Notes under the pieces: model-generated
Database searches by the model: none
Told to the model about the DNA's origin: nothing
Seen by the model: the letters and a program-made list of their open reading frames with translations, nothing else
Virus record (IMG/VR): IMGVR_UViG_3300044972_000193
Span: 1 to 34,697 of that record
Strand: one strand, 5' to 3'
Source: a virus
Length of the DNA stretch: 34,697 bases
In this document: positions 9,564-23,144 of the stretch, piece by piece
How the letters are laid out: the number at the start of each line of letters is the position of its first letter
Position numbering within the stretch: the stretch's first letter is position 1
Made by a program: the position numbers and the translations under genes

Positions 9564-10654
9564 TTTAAGTTCTCCAATAGTTTATTTGCACTAAAAAATT
9601 GTTCAGTCAAATCGTGTGTTTGTTTACGCAACTGGGGCAATCTTTTTTCATAGTGTGTCATAGTAACTATAATATGGTGACATAGTTCTTGTCTATGTGC
9701 TAGATAACTATCCCAGTCTTGTGTCCACTCGCTGGGATATTTAAATCCTTCGTAATACATTTCATTGTACGACAAACGATCCGGTACCATAGGAATAGCA
9801 TCTACAATGGCACCTTCATAACATCCAATGCCTAGTGTTTCTTGTAAACTTGCACTAAACACAATCTTACTTTCACCTAGCAAGTTGTGATATTCGTTTT
9901 TAGTAAGTTCTTGATCTTGACAAACAACAAACTCATATTGAGGTAATTGTTCTTTAAGATCACGGAAGATTTCCACTTGTTTCTCGGGAGCAATACGATG
10001 TGGAAACAAAATAAGATCACGTTTCTTCATGCCCTTATACAGATTCAAAGTTGAATCCATATATTCCATGGGCCAGCCAGTACGTACCATTTTACCGTTA
10101 TCATATCGTTCGTCAAAATCTTCCTCATACCACGGATTCTCTGAAGGCCAGCCATCCTCTAGAAGTTCGTTAAAGAATAATTTAACATGGAATTCTGTGG
10201 CAAAGTAGTTGTGATCAAAAGCATGATAGAAACTCTTTTCGGCATTTCTAACCCATTTCTTCTTACCAACTAATCGTCCTAAAAAGTCCTGTGGATCATA
10301 ACTACCAGCATGCCATAGTCCATGTGTGATTACTGGGATGCCTAGCAACTCACTCATATACTTTAAATTTATAATGCCCGGATGCCAAGCATCAGTAAAA
10401 AGAAAGTGGTCGCCAGGATGAACGGATCCGTCACAAAATAAACGGCCCATCTGCTCAACTTGTCGAGCTTTGTATATATTAGTACCACCAAAATTAAGGA
10501 AAGCACCAGGAGTAGTGGCGTTAGGAATATCTGTCGGACCAGAGATAATTTGAACATTGTGTCCTGCCTTTTGTAATAAGGAAGGTACATGGGCCTTCCA
10601 TTGACCCGTGTACCTTGTCTCAACTGATTCTAAATCAACGAGAAAAATTGTCAT
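9560..10654 (-). CDS. GT-B fold glycosyltransferase (GT4-like)
   Basis: A 364-aa glycosyltransferase. The N-terminal domain has a Rossmann-like start (MTIFLVDLESVE, and a loop around GHNVQIISGPTD). The C-terminal domain has LILFPHRIAPEKQVEIF and the EX7E motif of retaining GT4 enzymes, E272-TLGIGCY-E280, followed by DAIPMVPDRLSY, which binds the sugar nucleotide. The acceptor is unknown: modified DNA bases, as T4 glucosylates its cytosines, or host surface polysaccharide. It lies in the same operon as queD, which makes a hypermodified-base role worth testing. Its start overlaps the 80-aa gene by 20 bases and its stop overlaps the cupin start by four. Confidence 0.85.
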   Translation of the reverse strand: MTIFLVDLESVETRYTGQWKAHVPSLLQKAGHNVQIISGPTDIPNATTPGAFLNFGGTNIYKARQVEQMGRLFCDGSVHPGDHFLFTDAWHPGIINLKYMSELLGIPVITHGLWHAGSYDPQDFLGRLVGKKKWVRNAEKSFYHAFDHNYFATEFHVKLFFNELLEDGWPSENPWYEEDFDERYDNGKMVRTGWPMEYMDSTLNLYKGMKKRDLILFPHRIAPEKQVEIFRDLKEQLPQYEFVVCQDQELTKNEYHNLLGESKIVFSASLQETLGIGCYEGAIVDAIPMVPDRLSYNEMYYEGFKYPSEWTQDWDSYLAHRQELCHHIIVTMTHYEKRLPQLRKQTHDLTEQFFSANKLLENLK

Positions 10655-10877
10655 TGTTTTGGCCTCTAGGCTTAAAATCCCTACGGTAGTTTTTACGATC
10701 GCCTTGATATGGCGGACGAGAAAAATACCTATATTCCTGTGACCTATACAAGTCTGCAGGATTATAAGGAAGAAGGTTAAATCGGCAGTGATCTAACCAA
10801 GCGTCGAGATCGTCAAAGATCTTGTCTACTTCTGGCTTCATGCGAAGCGTTTTTTGAATATAGGCAGGTTGTGCCAT
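10635..10877 (-). CDS. Hypothetical small protein, 80 aa, basic C-terminus
   Basis: The N-terminal half is helical with an acidic stretch (KPEVDKIFDDLDAWLDHC). The C-terminal half is rich in Arg, Tyr, Asn and Gln (YFSRPPYQGDRKNYRRDF) and likely disordered, as in nucleic-acid-binding tails. No family recognised. It overlaps the glycosyltransferase start by 20 bases and lies 14 bases after queD, so it is part of the queD operon. Confidence 0.65.
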   Translation of the reverse strand: MAQPAYIQKTLRMKPEVDKIFDDLDAWLDHCRFNLLPYNPADLYRSQEYRYFSRPPYQGDRKNYRRDFKPRGQNNDNFSR

Positions 10878-10891
10878 AATAAAATACCTTT

Positions 10892-11284
10892 TTAGATTAA
10901 AGGGTTTGTTGATGGAAATTTAATGAAGCAGCCGTTCTCGCCGTCTTCACTTACGTCGACCCAAACCTCACGACCTGGGTATCTTGCCGAAATGGTGCCG
11001 TAAAGATCACGACTGATCATTTCGCAGGATTTGAAGTTGAGCTCTAGCGTACCTTCACTGTACAACTGTTCGAGCCAACGTTTGAACTGAATAAATTCAA
11101 TGTCACGATCGTCGTGGAACACTTGAATATAAATTTTAAAATGGAAAATATGACGATGTGGGTTTGCTAGGAAACTAACATCGTATTCTCCAGCTGTACA
11201 CAAATTAGGATCTGTGGCGGCAGCAGGGTAGCGGTGGATGCCTTCTTTACGGAAGGTTATCCAAATCATATTAAGATCGTTCAT
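10892..11284 (-). CDS. queD: QueD-like 6-carboxytetrahydropterin synthase (T-fold)
   Basis: QueD turns dihydroneopterin triphosphate into 6-carboxy-tetrahydropterin, the substrate of QueE. The 130-aa protein aligns by eye with the T-fold family: IHRYPAAA (H17) in place of the usual AAHRL, NPHRHIFHFKIYIQVF (H43 and H45) for the HGHxY zinc site, IEFIQFKRWLEQLY for the DF..LK helix, SCEMISRDLYGTI for the PT-E helix, and VWVDVSEDGENGCF at the end. C29 could be the catalytic cysteine, but it stands 14 residues before the HxH pair, more than usual. The ATG overlaps the upstream 57-aa gene's stop as ATGA; a second ATG lies five codons in. A 6-pyruvoyl-tetrahydropterin synthase activity is the main alternative. 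Confidence 0.78.
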   Translation of the reverse strand: MNDLNMIWITFRKEGIHRYPAAATDPNLCTAGEYDVSFLANPHRHIFHFKIYIQVFHDDRDIEFIQFKRWLEQLYSEGTLELNFKSCEMISRDLYGTISARYPGREVWVDVSEDGENGCFIKFPSTNPLI

Positions 11285-19013: not shown

Positions 19014-19250
19014 TTATTTAGGTTGGCGAGCAGCGTATAAAGCCGCAGTTGCCATTTGGTCTTTCTTCTCGGGAGTTTTATTTTTAAACTGATGATACTG
19101 ACTTGGATTGGCAGTTTGGAAACGTTCTTTCCAATAGTCCAAAGACATCTCTGGTTTTAGTTTCGGTTGCGGACCAATTTTTTTAACTGGTTCTGTAGCA
19201 GGAGCCTGTGCTGGTTCAACAGCAGGTTCTTGAGGTTCCTGCTCACTTAC
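19014..19250 (-). CDS. -1 frame extension of the 395-aa gene (78 codons)
   Basis: An open frame in the -1 phase begins at the slippery site that ends the 395-aa gene and runs 78 codons to TAA at 19014-19016. It encodes a Pro/Glu/Ala-rich linker (EPQEPAVEPAQAPATEP) and then a compact domain of about 44 residues (MSLDYWKERFQTANPSQY and onward to ALYAARQPK). It has no start codon and no ribosome binding site at its beginning; the only internal ATG would give 44 residues. The simplest reading is that it is made as a C-terminal extension by -1 frameshifting, giving a 473-aa protein. Independent initiation at the internal ATG, or an ancestral frameshift mutation, are the alternatives. Confidence 0.68.
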   Translation of the reverse strand, partial: VSEQEPQEPAVEPAQAPATEPVKKIGPQPKLKPEMSLDYWKERFQTANPSQYHQFKNKTPEKKDQMATAALYAARQPK

Positions 19251-19256
19251 TTTTTT
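19221..19256 (-). promoter_or_regulatory. Programmed -1 ribosomal frameshift signal
   Basis: The minus-strand heptamer A AAA AAG (19250-19256) is in the correct phase (GCA AAA AAG TAA) and directly precedes the zero-frame stop. After a six-base spacer comes a perfect stem AGCAGG/CCTGCT (19238-19243 and 19221-19226) with an 11-base loop. This is the slippery sequence used in E. coli dnaX and, with this spacing, a standard stimulatory layout. Confidence 0.72.
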
Positions 19257-20434
19257 GCAAGTTCCTCAACTTTGGATCTCAATGATTCAAAGTATGGGTC
19301 TACGCCTTCCATTGCATTGTCAGCCTTTGATTTAGCTTCTTCCCTAGTTCGACTGTATCCACGTGCCATTGCTTCTTTTTCTTGATTAGGATAAACAGAT
19401 GTTTTATACATTTTCCCATCCTTAACAATATACCAATCGGATGGATCTAGATCGGGTCTTTCGTCATCTCTATGATTGTTACCACGGTCCATTCCACTTA
19501 CGCTACTGTCATAGTCACGCTGATATGCGTCTCTACGATCATAACGCCCGTATGCTTCGTTAGCATCCTGTTGTGGATCAATGCCCTGTTCTTTTTGACT
19601 TTGTAGATAATCCCAAACGCCAACTAACATCATTTCTGCTTTGGCAATCTTTTCTTGCACCCATTCTGGTAAGTTATCTTTATCATCGATAGTCTTTAAC
19701 AATCCCATAACTGCTCTTGCTGAAGTAAGCAAGTTGGTATGTGCCATACCTGCTTCGTCATCATATTCGCCGTTAAAGCCTTCTGCCATACCTTGTCCTA
19801 ATACTTGTTTTACTAACAGTTGAGGAGCAAACTCCATATCACCTGCTAATTCTCTTGCGGCTGCTAATACTGCCTGTGGAGTAGGTTTTAATCTTTTTTC
19901 TTCTACATCACGACGTAGTTTTGTTATAAGAGATTGTGCGTCATAACTTAAATCACTGACGCCTTCTGATGTGCCTTTTTGTAACCATCCGTAGACACTT
20001 ACTAGGTCACTAGGAAAGTCTTCGTCATAGTTGAATACAGACATGGCTCTTTTATTACCTAGGTCTTTTACTGCTATAGGCCAAGCTGCATCTAACACTG
20101 CGTTTTCGTCTTTGATATTTGGGTTTGCGCTAAACACTTGTTTTGCTAGATCTTCGGCATACGATTCCGCCAGCGGCTTCTTATGTTTTACGCTACCTTG
20201 CTTTTGTGCTTTCTTTTTATCTTTGTGCTGACCAGCACCACCCATCTTAGCGTTCTTGGCTACAAAGTTACGAGGCTTTGGTGTTTCTTTCTTTTCTTGT
20301 GCAAGGATACTATCTTCACGCCTCTTTCCAGGAGCTGTAGCAACAACACCTGCACTAGTTGCACCACTTGTGGCAGTTTCTAGCACATAATGAGTGTCTT
20401 CGTTATTTTTTATTTTTTTAAATTCGCTGGTCAT
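19247..20434 (-). CDS. Uncharacterised 395-aa protein, zero-frame product
   Basis: Function not recognised. Residues 1-90 are charged and low in complexity, with KPRNFVAKNAKMGGAGQHKD and a Lys-rich continuation. A folded domain follows (about 90-300: AEDLAKQVFSANPN, FPSDLVSVYGWLQKG, and helices through EKIAKAEMMLVGVWDYL). Then comes an Asp/Arg/Tyr-rich linker (AYGRYDRRDAYQRDYDSS) and a small C-terminal domain (DWYIVKDGKMYKTSVYPN). The protein ends at a TAA directly behind an A AAA AAG slippery site and probably also exists as a 473-aa form through -1 frameshifting. It follows the accessory-enzyme block and overlaps the 122-aa gene by four bases. A virion or virion-assembly role would fit a frameshifted minor form, but is unproven. 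Confidence 0.78.
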   Translation of the reverse strand: MTSEFKKIKNNEDTHYVLETATSGATSAGVVATAPGKRREDSILAQEKKETPKPRNFVAKNAKMGGAGQHKDKKKAQKQGSVKHKKPLAESYAEDLAKQVFSANPNIKDENAVLDAAWPIAVKDLGNKRAMSVFNYDEDFPSDLVSVYGWLQKGTSEGVSDLSYDAQSLITKLRRDVEEKRLKPTPQAVLAAARELAGDMEFAPQLLVKQVLGQGMAEGFNGEYDDEAGMAHTNLLTSARAVMGLLKTIDDKDNLPEWVQEKIAKAEMMLVGVWDYLQSQKEQGIDPQQDANEAYGRYDRRDAYQRDYDSSVSGMDRGNNHRDDERPDLDPSDWYIVKDGKMYKTSVYPNQEKEAMARGYSRTREEAKSKADNAMEGVDPYFESLRSKVEELAKK

Positions 20435-20799
20435 TTTGTTTTATTCCAATTTGATACAGGGCTTACTGTATTGGTACCAGATAACTCTTTACTACTCATG
20501 TCACCGTGGTTAAGATCTTTGTAATTTGCCCCTGCAAGTTTGTAGGCTTGTTTAAGGATATCGGCTTCTACTTTAGTATATGGAGCAGTTACTTTGCTTT
20601 TACCAAGCCAACTTAGGTAATCAATGTCTGGATTATTTTTACCATCGCACATTGCGGCAGCAAGGCCAACTCTGTTAAAAGTGTAATCACTGTTGGCTTT
20701 TTCTGAATCACTGAATGTGTGTAATCCTCGTGTGGAGTTTTGTTGTCTTTTAGTCAACTTACCTTTTTTTCTCTCAGTAATAAGTTCAAGTATCTTCAT
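20431..20799 (-). CDS. Hypothetical protein with possible capsid-targeting leader, 122 aa
   Basis: A basic protein without a recognised family. It starts MKILELITE, close in length and pattern to the short N-terminal leaders that T4 uses to direct internal proteins into the head, which the gp21 protease removes after (L/I)-x-E (here ITE). The middle has a cysteine-containing GLAAAMCDGKNNPDIDYLSW segment. It is the last of five consecutive minus-strand genes of the accessory-enzyme block and overlaps the 395-aa gene's start by four bases. Function unknown. Confidence 0.68.
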   Translation of the reverse strand: MKILELITERKKGKLTKRQQNSTRGLHTFSDSEKANSDYTFNRVGLAAAMCDGKNNPDIDYLSWLGKSKVTAPYTKVEADILKQAYKLAGANYKDLNHGDMSSKELSGTNTVSPVSNWNKTK

Positions 20800-20805
20800 A
20801 ATGTA

Positions 20806-21066
20806 TTATTTACCACGTCCGAACCATAACTTAAACCATTCATCTGTACCTGGTTTAATACCCTGCTCTCGTTGTATTTGTCCTTTATTACTACCTACAA
20901 CAGGTTGTTTTAGTGTAGCATTGTATTCTGCAAGACGAGCTTGTCCGCCTAATCCGCCCATTATACTAGTTGCCTTTAAGGCATGTATAGGATCATCTGC
21001 GGCTAGGAACGCATCATCTCCACTATCCTGTGGAACATCATTTACGGTTATTCTGTATTGCTTCAT
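20806..21066 (-). CDS. Hypothetical small protein, 86 aa
   Basis: A frame from a TTG at 21072 exists, but the ATG at 21064-21066 gives MKQYRITVNDVPQ and is the more usual start; neither has a strong ribosome binding site. The N-terminal half looks like a small beta-grasp or processing-type domain (ITVNDVPQDSGDDAF, HALKATSIMGG). The C-terminus TDEWFKLWFGRG resembles the end of the pol-beta-like protein upstream in the block (SQEWFRFL), so the two may share a short terminal element. It overlaps the end of the nucleotidyltransferase gene by about 29 bases. Function unknown. Confidence 0.6.
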   Translation of the reverse strand: MKQYRITVNDVPQDSGDDAFLAADDPIHALKATSIMGGLGGQARLAEYNATLKQPVVGSNKGQIQREQGIKPGTDEWFKLWFGRGK

Positions 21067-22003
21067 TGACAATAATCTTATTGATTAGAGCGTCCATGAT
21101 ATTCTCAACACCTTCGCTGACTTTAACACAGTTATTAACCCTAGTGTCGCCCTTCATCTTAGTGCCTTGCTTTCTGTAGCCTTTCCAGCAACTAGGATCT
21201 AACCGTTGTTTTTCTTCGTCAGTTTTTTCATCTTTTTTGGGCTCAGGTGGCTTAGGAGGATTTAGTAATTCTCGAGCACGTTGTTGACTAGCGGCAGTGC
21301 GTCCATATGGGCTTTTCTTAAATGTAATTTCTGCTACAGTTTTGGCTTTCTTTGGTTTAGGAGCATTCATTGCGGTCATACGCTCTTTAGCCTTCATCAT
21401 TAAATCACGAACTTCGTCATCACTGACCTGTGGATTCATAGCATCACGCCATACTTGGAATTGTTCTTGTTCGGATTTACTAGGATCCATTAATACTGCC
21501 CGCATAGGAGTAGCACGTGGTCCCTCTTGATCCTTGCTAGGATCGCTGGTTTCTTGACGACTGATAACGTCTAACTTATCAAATGTATACGGAACGTTGC
21601 CTGCTTTGTCTGGCTTGCCGTTGTAGTTCTTTAGGTATTGAAATGCCTTAACTTGATCAGCACCTAGTACAATGGTAGCACTGGTATAACCTTGACGATT
21701 TAAATCTGATAAAACTCTGGTTAAGTCTGGAATCTCATCTGTGGCAGTTTGGAAAATATGACCTTGTTCTGGAAATACTTTTTTGTAGATGGCTAACTTT
21801 TCGTCTGGAGTAATAGGATCATCTTTGCCTACTGTGCGGCTAACAACAAAGTAAGGATCAGCACTTAGCTGATTTGCATGAGTGATAACACTACTGGCTA
21901 ACATCATGTGACCCTTGTGTCCCATGCCTCTGCCCCAACCAACAACTGCGGCCTTGCCTTCTCCAGTTCTTGCTAGTGCTTCAAAAATATTTCTTAAAAA
22001 CAT
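21038..22003 (-). CDS. HxGH-type nucleotidylyltransferase
   Basis: A 321-aa protein whose N-terminal half is a Rossmann-like nucleotidylyltransferase domain: AAVVGWGRGMGHKGHMML with HxGH at residues 29-32, later TIVLGADQV, and a GPRATPMRAVL segment resembling the second conserved site of the superfamily. Members transfer NMP from NTPs to phosphorylated substrates (NMNAT, CCT, PPAT and others); the substrate is not predictable. The C-terminal third is a Lys/Pro-rich tail (PPKPPEPKKDEKTDEEK) and a basic domain with KGDTRVNNCVKV. The start at 22001-22003 was preferred over 22039 because an AAGGA site precedes it and it lies one base after the upstream stop. The N-terminus MFLRNIFEAL contains an IFE site like the head-targeting leaders described for its neighbours. 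Confidence 0.75.
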   Translation of the reverse strand: MFLRNIFEALARTGEGKAAVVGWGRGMGHKGHMMLASSVITHANQLSADPYFVVSRTVGKDDPITPDEKLAIYKKVFPEQGHIFQTATDEIPDLTRVLSDLNRQGYTSATIVLGADQVKAFQYLKNYNGKPDKAGNVPYTFDKLDVISRQETSDPSKDQEGPRATPMRAVLMDPSKSEQEQFQVWRDAMNPQVSDDEVRDLMMKAKERMTAMNAPKPKKAKTVAEITFKKSPYGRTAASQQRARELLNPPKPPEPKKDEKTDEEKQRLDPSCWKGYRKQGTKMKGDTRVNNCVKVSEGVENIMDALINKIIVNEAIQNNRK

Positions 22004-22004
22004 A

Positions 22005-23144
22005 TTAGTCTTTCCTTGGTGCCCAGTTTGCTTGGTCAATTGCTTTTACAAATTGTCCAGGTAGGTCACGTTTAAATGGTGTGCCTGGGTGTGCTTGTAC
22101 ATAACCTTCTGGCTTAGTTTGTCTAATACCACCGTGTGTACCTGCACTTAATTTATTAATCAATTGTAGTTTTTCTCTGCTTAACAAATCTACACTGTGT
22201 AATACAGCGTTTAATCCGGTTTGATCTGCAAGAATCTTTTGTGCTTGACCTGCACTTACATTAGCAGTGACCCAGTCTTGGAACTTGTCCTTAACACCCG
22301 GTGTGCGTAAGTTTTGGTTATAGAATTTGTAAAGGATGTCACCTGGTTTGCTCAATCCTGGTTTGGGTGCAAGGAACGCATCAATAGCGGCAGCATTAGC
22401 AGTGATATACTGTTCGGCTGCCTTTAATCCTTTGTCTTCTACACCTGGCGCTTTTTCAACATAGGTTGTACCTTGTACAATAACATCGGGTGTGCTTAAT
22501 GCTTCTGCATTTGGATAGCGTCCTTCCTCACTACTACCTAGTGCGTCATAGAAGCCTGTGACGGCGACCATAACTTTGGCAGTCTTAATACGCTTGCCTA
22601 AATCACTGGCTACTGGAATGTGGAAGGCTGTGATGTTAGGAGTAAAATCGTATTCTTGTGTTTGTGGATTTAACTGTGCAGGCTTACTTGGATAGAATAA
22701 TAATCCACCTTCTACGTAACCTTTTTCTGGACTTACTTTTTCAAAGTAGGGCCAAAGATCCATCATCTCTTGTGCAAATGCTTGACGCTGTGGCATCTGT
22801 TCCGGAGTTGCTTTACCTGTGCCTAGCACAAAGTTTTTAATATCTTCAGGGCTATACATTGCTGTAGGAACGCCCGGGCTAACTTCACTCTTACCACGCT
22901 TAAGATATTCCCAAGCGTTTTTCGGAATCATTGAGAAGCGACCTTGTTCATCCTTGCCCCAATACATAACAGGGCTACCGTCCCATTTTAATTCAATGGT
23001 ACTGCCTTGTGACCCCATGCTCTGTAATCTTTCAACAGCATGTAGTCCACCTGTGCTACCGTTAGTAAACACCAAGTCTTCAATGTGCTGATACTTGCGA
23101 CCTATTGCGGCTGCGGCTTCTATGATTAATTCGCGTATCTTCAT
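22005..23144 (-). CDS. Nucleic acid ligase-like nucleotidyltransferase (KxDG), 379 aa
   Basis: The region IELKWDGSPVMYW contains K53-W-D55-G56, the covalent-nucleotide motif I of DNA/RNA ligases and mRNA capping enzymes. The segment GYVEGGLLFYPS further on resembles motif IV, and a VMVAVTGFYDAL strand follows. A related family of unknown function is, to my memory, frequent in T4-like marine phages (DUF6267-like; the name should be checked). No classical OB domain is obvious; the C-terminal 150 residues are helical. The N-terminus MKIRELIIEAAAA has an IIE site like the T4 head-targeting leader. Its start overlaps the pol-beta-like gene by four bases. Ligation, repair or capping of a nucleic acid end is the likely chemistry; the substrate is unknown. 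Confidence 0.68.
   Translation of the reverse strand: MKIRELIIEAAAAIGRKYQHIEDLVFTNGSTGGLHAVERLQSMGSQGSTIELKWDGSPVMYWGKDEQGRFSMIPKNAWEYLKRGKSEVSPGVPTAMYSPEDIKNFVLGTGKATPEQMPQRQAFAQEMMDLWPYFEKVSPEKGYVEGGLLFYPSKPAQLNPQTQEYDFTPNITAFHIPVASDLGKRIKTAKVMVAVTGFYDALGSSEEGRYPNAEALSTPDVIVQGTTYVEKAPGVEDKGLKAAEQYITANAAAIDAFLAPKPGLSKPGDILYKFYNQNLRTPGVKDKFQDWVTANVSAGQAQKILADQTGLNAVLHSVDLLSREKLQLINKLSAGTHGGIRQTKPEGYVQAHPGTPFKRDLPGQFVKAIDQANWAPRKD

Follow-up and report, generated by a model that had tools for sequence, protein, structure and literature searches.

A highly probable -1 programmed ribosomal frameshift and its C-terminal domain in T4-like aquatic phages

Gene context, slip site and extension

The window, i.e. 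the whole stretch of 34,697 nucleotides analyzed here, represents 34.7 kb from the genome of a T4-like phage, as judged from a B-family DNA polymerase (phrog_262), an exonuclease, a QueE-like radical SAM gene, and an ATP-dependent protease. Its minus strand carries a modular gene encoding 395 aa (19247-20434; MTSEFKK...EELAKK*), with a DUF7230/phrog_1359-like Lys-rich motif at residues 52-87 of the product. The N-terminus of this protein (MTSEFKKIKNNEDTHYVLE, 20378-20434, minus strand) is conserved as the short motif M..EFKK...[VRT]xY[VIT]LE in 26 relatives and was likened to a capsid-targeting propeptide ending in phi-x-E, a putative function. An overlapping gene of 122 aa (20431-20799, minus strand; MKILELITE...) is located upstream, and homologues of it also precede the gene in those relatives that encode the C-terminal domain in frame. 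According to PHROGs and Pfam searches the flanks contain small ORFs, a cytidyltransferase, DUF6267, and the DNA polymerase, and no tape measure protein was found as a neighbor. The cytidyltransferase neighbor is common to the window and to cyanophages. The cytidyltransferase-like and DUF6267 genes (21038-23144) and the 122-aa ORF all have N-termini resembling the T4 CTS (MFLRNIFEA, MKIRELIIEA, and MKILELITE), and it is possible that these upstream genes form an operon of head-internal proteins.

The 395-aa gene ends with GCA AAA AAG TAA on the minus strand. As claimed in the original prediction, the slippery heptamer A_AAA_AAG (19250-19256) thereby occupies the last two sense codons in the correct phase, GC[A AAA AAG] TAA, with the zero-frame stop TAA (19247-19249) immediately 3' of it. 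In-phase heptamers of the type XXXYYYZ (Y = A/T) were found just 34 times in the 9,950 codons of the window genes, and among these 34 the site at 19256-19250 was the sole gene-end heptamer with a long open -1 frame that is not simply the next gene. At the end of another minus-strand gene (10892-11284) an in-phase CCCTTTA was observed, where an 86-codon -1 frame runs into the next ORF (10635-10877).

Behind the heptamer the -1 frame comprises 78 codons and a stop (19014-19250, minus strand; VSEQEPQEPAVEPAQAPATEPVKKIGPQPKLKPEMSLDYWKERFQTANPSQYHQFKNKTPEKKDQMATAALYAARQPK, VSEQEPQ...AARQPK, stop at 19014), so that 395 and 78 codons add up to the 473-aa frameshift product that had been proposed. According to an AlphaFold model, a Pro/Ala/Glu-rich linker (19149-19250, minus strand), which overlaps the RNA signal and shows suppression of synonymous changes, is predicted to be disordered (pLDDT ~45). 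It is followed by a compact domain of two helices (MSLDYWKERFQTANPSQYHQFKNKTPEKKDQMATAALYAARQPK, 19017-19148, minus strand), modeled with pLDDT ~80-90 over most of its length and alignable to the in-frame C-terminal domains of relatives. Searches of Pfam, PHROGs, and PDB with this domain returned nothing significant. When the AlphaFold model was used for a fold search, nothing in the PDB matched, and the viral library yielded only weak matches (E 0.14 and worse), including P-TIM68 and Atu_ph07, which were already known as carriers of the domain. A search of bacterial and archaeal genome contigs did not detect the domain.

Conservation of the extension and of the RNA signal

Searching IMG/VR with the 395-aa protein yielded 78 loci with orthologues, in many of which the extension adjoins the gene. 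Conservation of slip site and extension in relatives had been proposed as a check of the original prediction, and A_AAA_AAG, TAA, and extension were indeed retained in ~20 contigs from different metagenomes. They were retained even where the 3'-end of the gene before the slip site has been exchanged by recombination of modules (ESLRSKVEELAKK, AAWKAKNKSKK, LPEKNKSKK, LANKLDQLKKK), and in some of them the upstream C-termini are unrelated (...NKSKK, ...LKKK, ...KAKK). Nucleotide changes in the extension are concentrated at third positions of the -1 frame, for which dN/dS against several close relatives amounted to 0.04-0.12 (window versus L006 0.038, L021 0.042, and L077 0.056). The other two frames contain stops over the same region, with dN/dS mostly near or above 1. 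These substitution patterns argue strongly for translation of the extension in the -1 frame and for purifying selection on it. L020, L021, L022, and L023 have longer -1 extensions of 112-287 codons that include further modules (e.g. NENFADGK...AHWLANMKAGRAKK), so that entire extra modules are placed behind the frameshift.

A -1 frameshift looks identical to a base lost from a homopolymer. Given that relatives with an in-frame domain exist, a sequencing or assembly error that removed one A from the run, the true gene being a single 473-aa ORF, has to be considered. However, more than 20 contigs, which stem from different metagenomes and in some pairs differ by dS >1, all have an A run of constant phase (6 or 9 A). 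Zero-frame stop and RNA signal are conserved as well, and a cyanophage isolate shows the same arrangement. Because of this conserved phase the probability of such an error is practically negligible.

Downstream of the slip site the six-base spacer (TAAGTG, 19244-19249) and the perfect 6-bp stem of the original prediction are both present, the latter being formed by AGCAGG (19243-19238) and the proximal 3' arm CCTGCT (19221-19226). However, AGCAGG represents only the first six bases of a longer 5' arm (AGCAGGAACCT, 19233-19243; fold and alignment columns 18-28), which pairs better with a second downstream copy, the distal 3' arm AGGCTCCTGCT (19197-19207). This pairing extends over 11 positions, is interrupted by a single mismatch in the window and perfect in L022, and encloses a 5-bp hairpin (19224-19220 / 19213-19209); it corresponds to the MFE structure, and 94% of cells are paired. 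Hence, the reported 6-bp stem is one of two alternatives and, in this simple form, is probably not the stimulatory structure. Both alternative pairings are retained in nine distinct sequences of the window clade, in which CCTGCT is invariant (100% kept). Since the stem pairs hardly vary in this clade, covariation neither proves the exact structure nor picks between the pairings.

The folding energy was -19.5 kcal/mol in the window (z ~ -2.9) and -25.4 kcal/mol in L022 (z ~ -4). Across the window type the downstream structure reached z ~ -2 to -4, with the stem starting 6 nt past the slip site. In divergent relatives the stem is rebuilt from other sequences at similar spacing, namely TTGAGCAGG/CCTGCTCAA in L098 and AACTGGTGCA/TGCACCAGTT in L139, while L100 and L104 rebuilt it with a differently placed arm. 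The region of the RNA signal also shows constraint on the coding sequence: synonymous changes were depressed over the first 18 extension codons, with 1/16 compared to 23/47 in the rest for window versus L021 (p = 0.0024) and a similar depression for window versus L077 (p = 0.01). A weak SD-like GAGG (19264-19267, minus strand) is located 7 nt 5' of the slip site; it is lost in L007, and members of the window clade do not share a conserved SD at this place. The pseudoknot between TCAA and TTGA that had been considered earlier is supported by none of our results.

States of the domain in relatives and further frameshift sites

A scan with the aligned domain identified 79 loci, and a broader scan of IMG/VR more than 500 matching stretches. 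Four states were distinguished. In the window type (state A) the slip site precedes the domain. In many loci (state B, e.g. L030, L073, L106, L144, and L146) the orthologous gene reads into the domain without a change of frame, and these loci share the conserved N-terminus and an overlapping upstream gene like that of the window. In state C (group C: L111-L115 and L117-L119) the zero frame covers half of the domain and ends with ...FKNKTPEKKK*, and the -1 frame (K)KVMATAALYKARQP provides the missing half; here the slip site has shifted to a position within the domain. In some marine phages (state D: L169, L172, L186-L188, L191, L197, and L207) the domain is a separate gene whose own start overlaps the previous stop (TGATG or TAATG).

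According to the original prediction, relatives encoding the extension in frame or as a separate gene would speak against frameshifting. Relatives of both kinds exist (states B and D), but the in-frame ones turned out to be supportive: they make an identical fusion from a single frame, so that the fused protein occurs naturally, and this favors the frameshift reading. Relatives of group B carry an LxE-K-like motif directly 5' of the domain (e.g. KLAEKIPKNAPVD in L146) that is missing from most frameshift types. In group B this motif possibly reflects an alternative, proteolytic route to both forms.

The separate genes of state D are also what could be expected if the extension of the window were a 44-aa gene without linker, expressed through re-initiation or translational coupling once the 395-aa gene has been read, with the heptamer being incidental. 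Contrary to the earlier description, there is an ATG in the extension, at codon 35 (19148-19146), and nearly all frameshift-type relatives have a Met codon at this place. However, this ATG lacks a Shine-Dalgarno sequence and is located ~100 nt past the stop. The linker before it is likewise conserved in the -1 frame, which is stop-free from the slip site on. Moreover, the Met is also found in group C, where the main gene reads this stretch in its own frame, and in the extension of L139 no start codon precedes the domain core. A separate start at codon 35 is thus very improbable, and -1 frameshifting remains the preferred reading.

In the isolated Synechococcus cyanophage SynMITS9220M01 (MT408532; L158:3930-4120) two overlapping hypothetical genes, 156 and 157, are annotated. 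The DNA reads CTA AAA AAG ACT CAA TGG, and a -1 shift yields LNLKK-DSMGDVIKDFYKSDAPQFKG, which matches the single-frame homologues of P-TIM68 (LNLKKADMGDVVKDFYKSDAPQFKG) and Sf-CH8. Genes 156 and 157 are probably one frameshifted gene. The A_AAA_AAG site is common to L201, L208, and L213. All four cyanophage-type sites are preceded by AGGAG 11 nt upstream and followed by a strong stem (z -4.2 to -5.6), in which the set shows just one compensatory base pair. Another site, G_GGA_AAG TAG with AGGGGG 10 nt upstream, was found in L233 and L237, where the first possible start codon is a Met inside the domain. In L107 (2959-2975) the slip site is A9-G followed by AAA TAG, a variant with one extra zero-frame codon before the stop.

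In a tree of the domain, well-supported branches force at least four switches between in-frame and frameshifted states, and group C is nested within the frameshift clade of the window. As the tree comprises only 47 columns and the transitions of L139 and L233 rest on one or two contigs each, four is the weakest of our numbers, whereas the two switches of the window clade and the cyanophage clade are solid. Attachment of the domain by frameshifting apparently arose independently of the window clade in as many as three further lineages.

The same -1 outcome could arise if the polymerase slipped on the A run and added a base to part of the mRNA. Runs of 9-10 A, which in known systems are long enough for this, occur in group C, L020, L024, L099, L107, and L139. 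In contrast, the run is limited to 6 A plus a G in the window, in most members of its clade, and in the cyanophages. This is short for efficient polymerase slippage, and their stem is spaced as for ribosomal frameshifting; L233, with G_GGA_AAG, has a site of the ribosomal type as well. As an explanation for the window, transcriptional slippage is therefore very improbable, although it could contribute mainly in the A9-A10 types.

Proposed mechanism, protein role and relation to known systems

The conserved in-phase site, the selected -1 frame, the constrained RNA region, and the in-frame homologues uphold the original prediction in its central point: a conserved dnaX-type -1 programmed ribosomal frameshift that produces a 395/473-aa pair is very probable. 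Most ribosomes would stop at TAA and release the 395-aa protein. In some ribosomes both Lys-tRNAs on A_AAA_AAG would slip back by one base, with pausing caused by the downstream stem and possibly also by the weak SD-like GAGG upstream. These ribosomes would read on to the 473-aa form, which carries the flexible Pro-rich linker and the small helical domain. We infer the slippage itself from established knowledge of A_AAA_AAG. This heptamer is the natural dnaX site and among the most shift-prone in E. coli (PMC5009743). The domain may be regarded as a mobile module of T4-like aquatic phages which elsewhere occurs as in-frame fusion or separate gene. By attaching it through frameshifting, the phage would make a mixture of forms with and without the domain.

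The main protein consists of swappable modules, which in relatives are often joined at GVAE[GA]. Orthologues of 770-850 aa (L146:757-3129, L129:643-3138, and L111:490-3087) contain modules joined at repeated EQGVAEG[SA] junctions. Motifs of the type phi-x-E-[AGS] exceed the shuffled expectation in some of the longest orthologues (8 versus 2.7 in L146). A shuffling test of the idea that GVAE[GA] junctions are protease sites likewise found enrichment in some of the longest proteins (L146, L129, and L012), not in that of the window. This suggests that the long orthologues are either prohead-protease polyproteins or contain recombination joints. In T4, capsid-targeting propeptides are cut by gp21 after L/I-X-E (PMC9026906), and head proteins of giant phages undergo processing at multiple sites (PMC5694885). 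The modular build of the main protein and the N-termini of it and its neighbors recall these cases, and a head-internal role appears most likely to us from the N-terminal likeness. We tentatively propose, by analogy and with less than even confidence, that the 395-aa product is a modular, possibly head-internal protein and that the interaction made by the domain is needed sub-stoichiometrically.

It is an evenly balanced question whether one small C-terminal domain of a modular head-internal protein was switched several times, each time independently, from constitutive in-frame fusion to frameshift-controlled, sub-stoichiometric attachment in T4-like aquatic phages, by four switches with different heptamers and positions and with the slip site moved into the domain in one sub-clade. 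If so, dosage of the domain would be the selected trait: some lineages would tune it by frameshifting, others perhaps through cleavage by the prohead protease or through separate genes. While -1 frameshifting with A_AAA_AAG is already well known, a search of the open-licence literature found no report of a -1 frameshift in the family of the 395-aa gene, of its domain, or of a repeated gain. The annotation of the cyanophage isolate splits the gene into two ORFs, and in metagenome phages annotators would lose the extension. Our analysis marks a specific, so far unannotated domain, matched in more than 500 IMG/VR stretches, whose dosage seems to matter to these phages. The family represents a series found in nature, with the domain fused in frame, attached by a frameshift before it or within it, or encoded as a separate gene, and is therefore suited to studying how programmed frameshifting originates and is maintained.

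Several known systems share features with this locus. The T4 internal head proteins Alt and IPI-III with their CTS have a short conserved N-terminus ending in phi-x-E, to which the short N-terminal motif described here may correspond, and the starts of the neighboring genes are similar. In contrast, the putative cut site here is V/I/T-L-E and not the strict L/I-X-E, and the architecture is multi-modular. Carboxysome Cso2 (CsoS2) also is frameshifted only in some species, 79/162 being predicted (PMC5009743). It is a bacterial and not a phage protein, and protein, domain, and site all differ.

In T7 10A/10B the minor form gains a short C-terminal domain. The -1 shift near the end of T7 gene 10 thus resembles the one described here (cited in PMC5009743), although the slip site differs. 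The reading as a T7-type capsid extension was dropped, as the 395-aa zero-frame product matches no capsid family in PHROGs or Pfam. The heptamer of lambda G/GT is G_GGA_AAG, as in L233. In the lambda-type tail assembly chaperone a minority of chains receive an additional domain by a -1 shift near the 3'-end (PMC5009743). The flanking genes differ, since cytidyltransferase, DUF6267, and DNA polymerase are found here instead of a tape measure gene, and the chaperone reading was dropped on this gene context and on family searches. For T4-like chaperones Vladimirov et al. 2022 (cited in PMC10885494) reportedly argue against frameshifting.

A parallel in the signal is E. coli dnaX (tau/gamma), with A_AAA_AAG, a downstream stem a few nt away, and two products with a common N-terminus; in other bacteria the dnaX pair is produced by other means (PMC5009743). 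The SD of dnaX is placed at ~10 nt. The window clade shows no clear counterpart at 10 nt, with GAGG at 7 nt in the window and lost in L007, but one is present at the cyanophage sites with AGGAG at 11 nt, and L233 has AGGGGG at 10 nt. Furthermore, in contrast to dnaX, the longer product is the frameshifted one in the family described here, the stop stands directly at the slip site, and the protein is unrelated.
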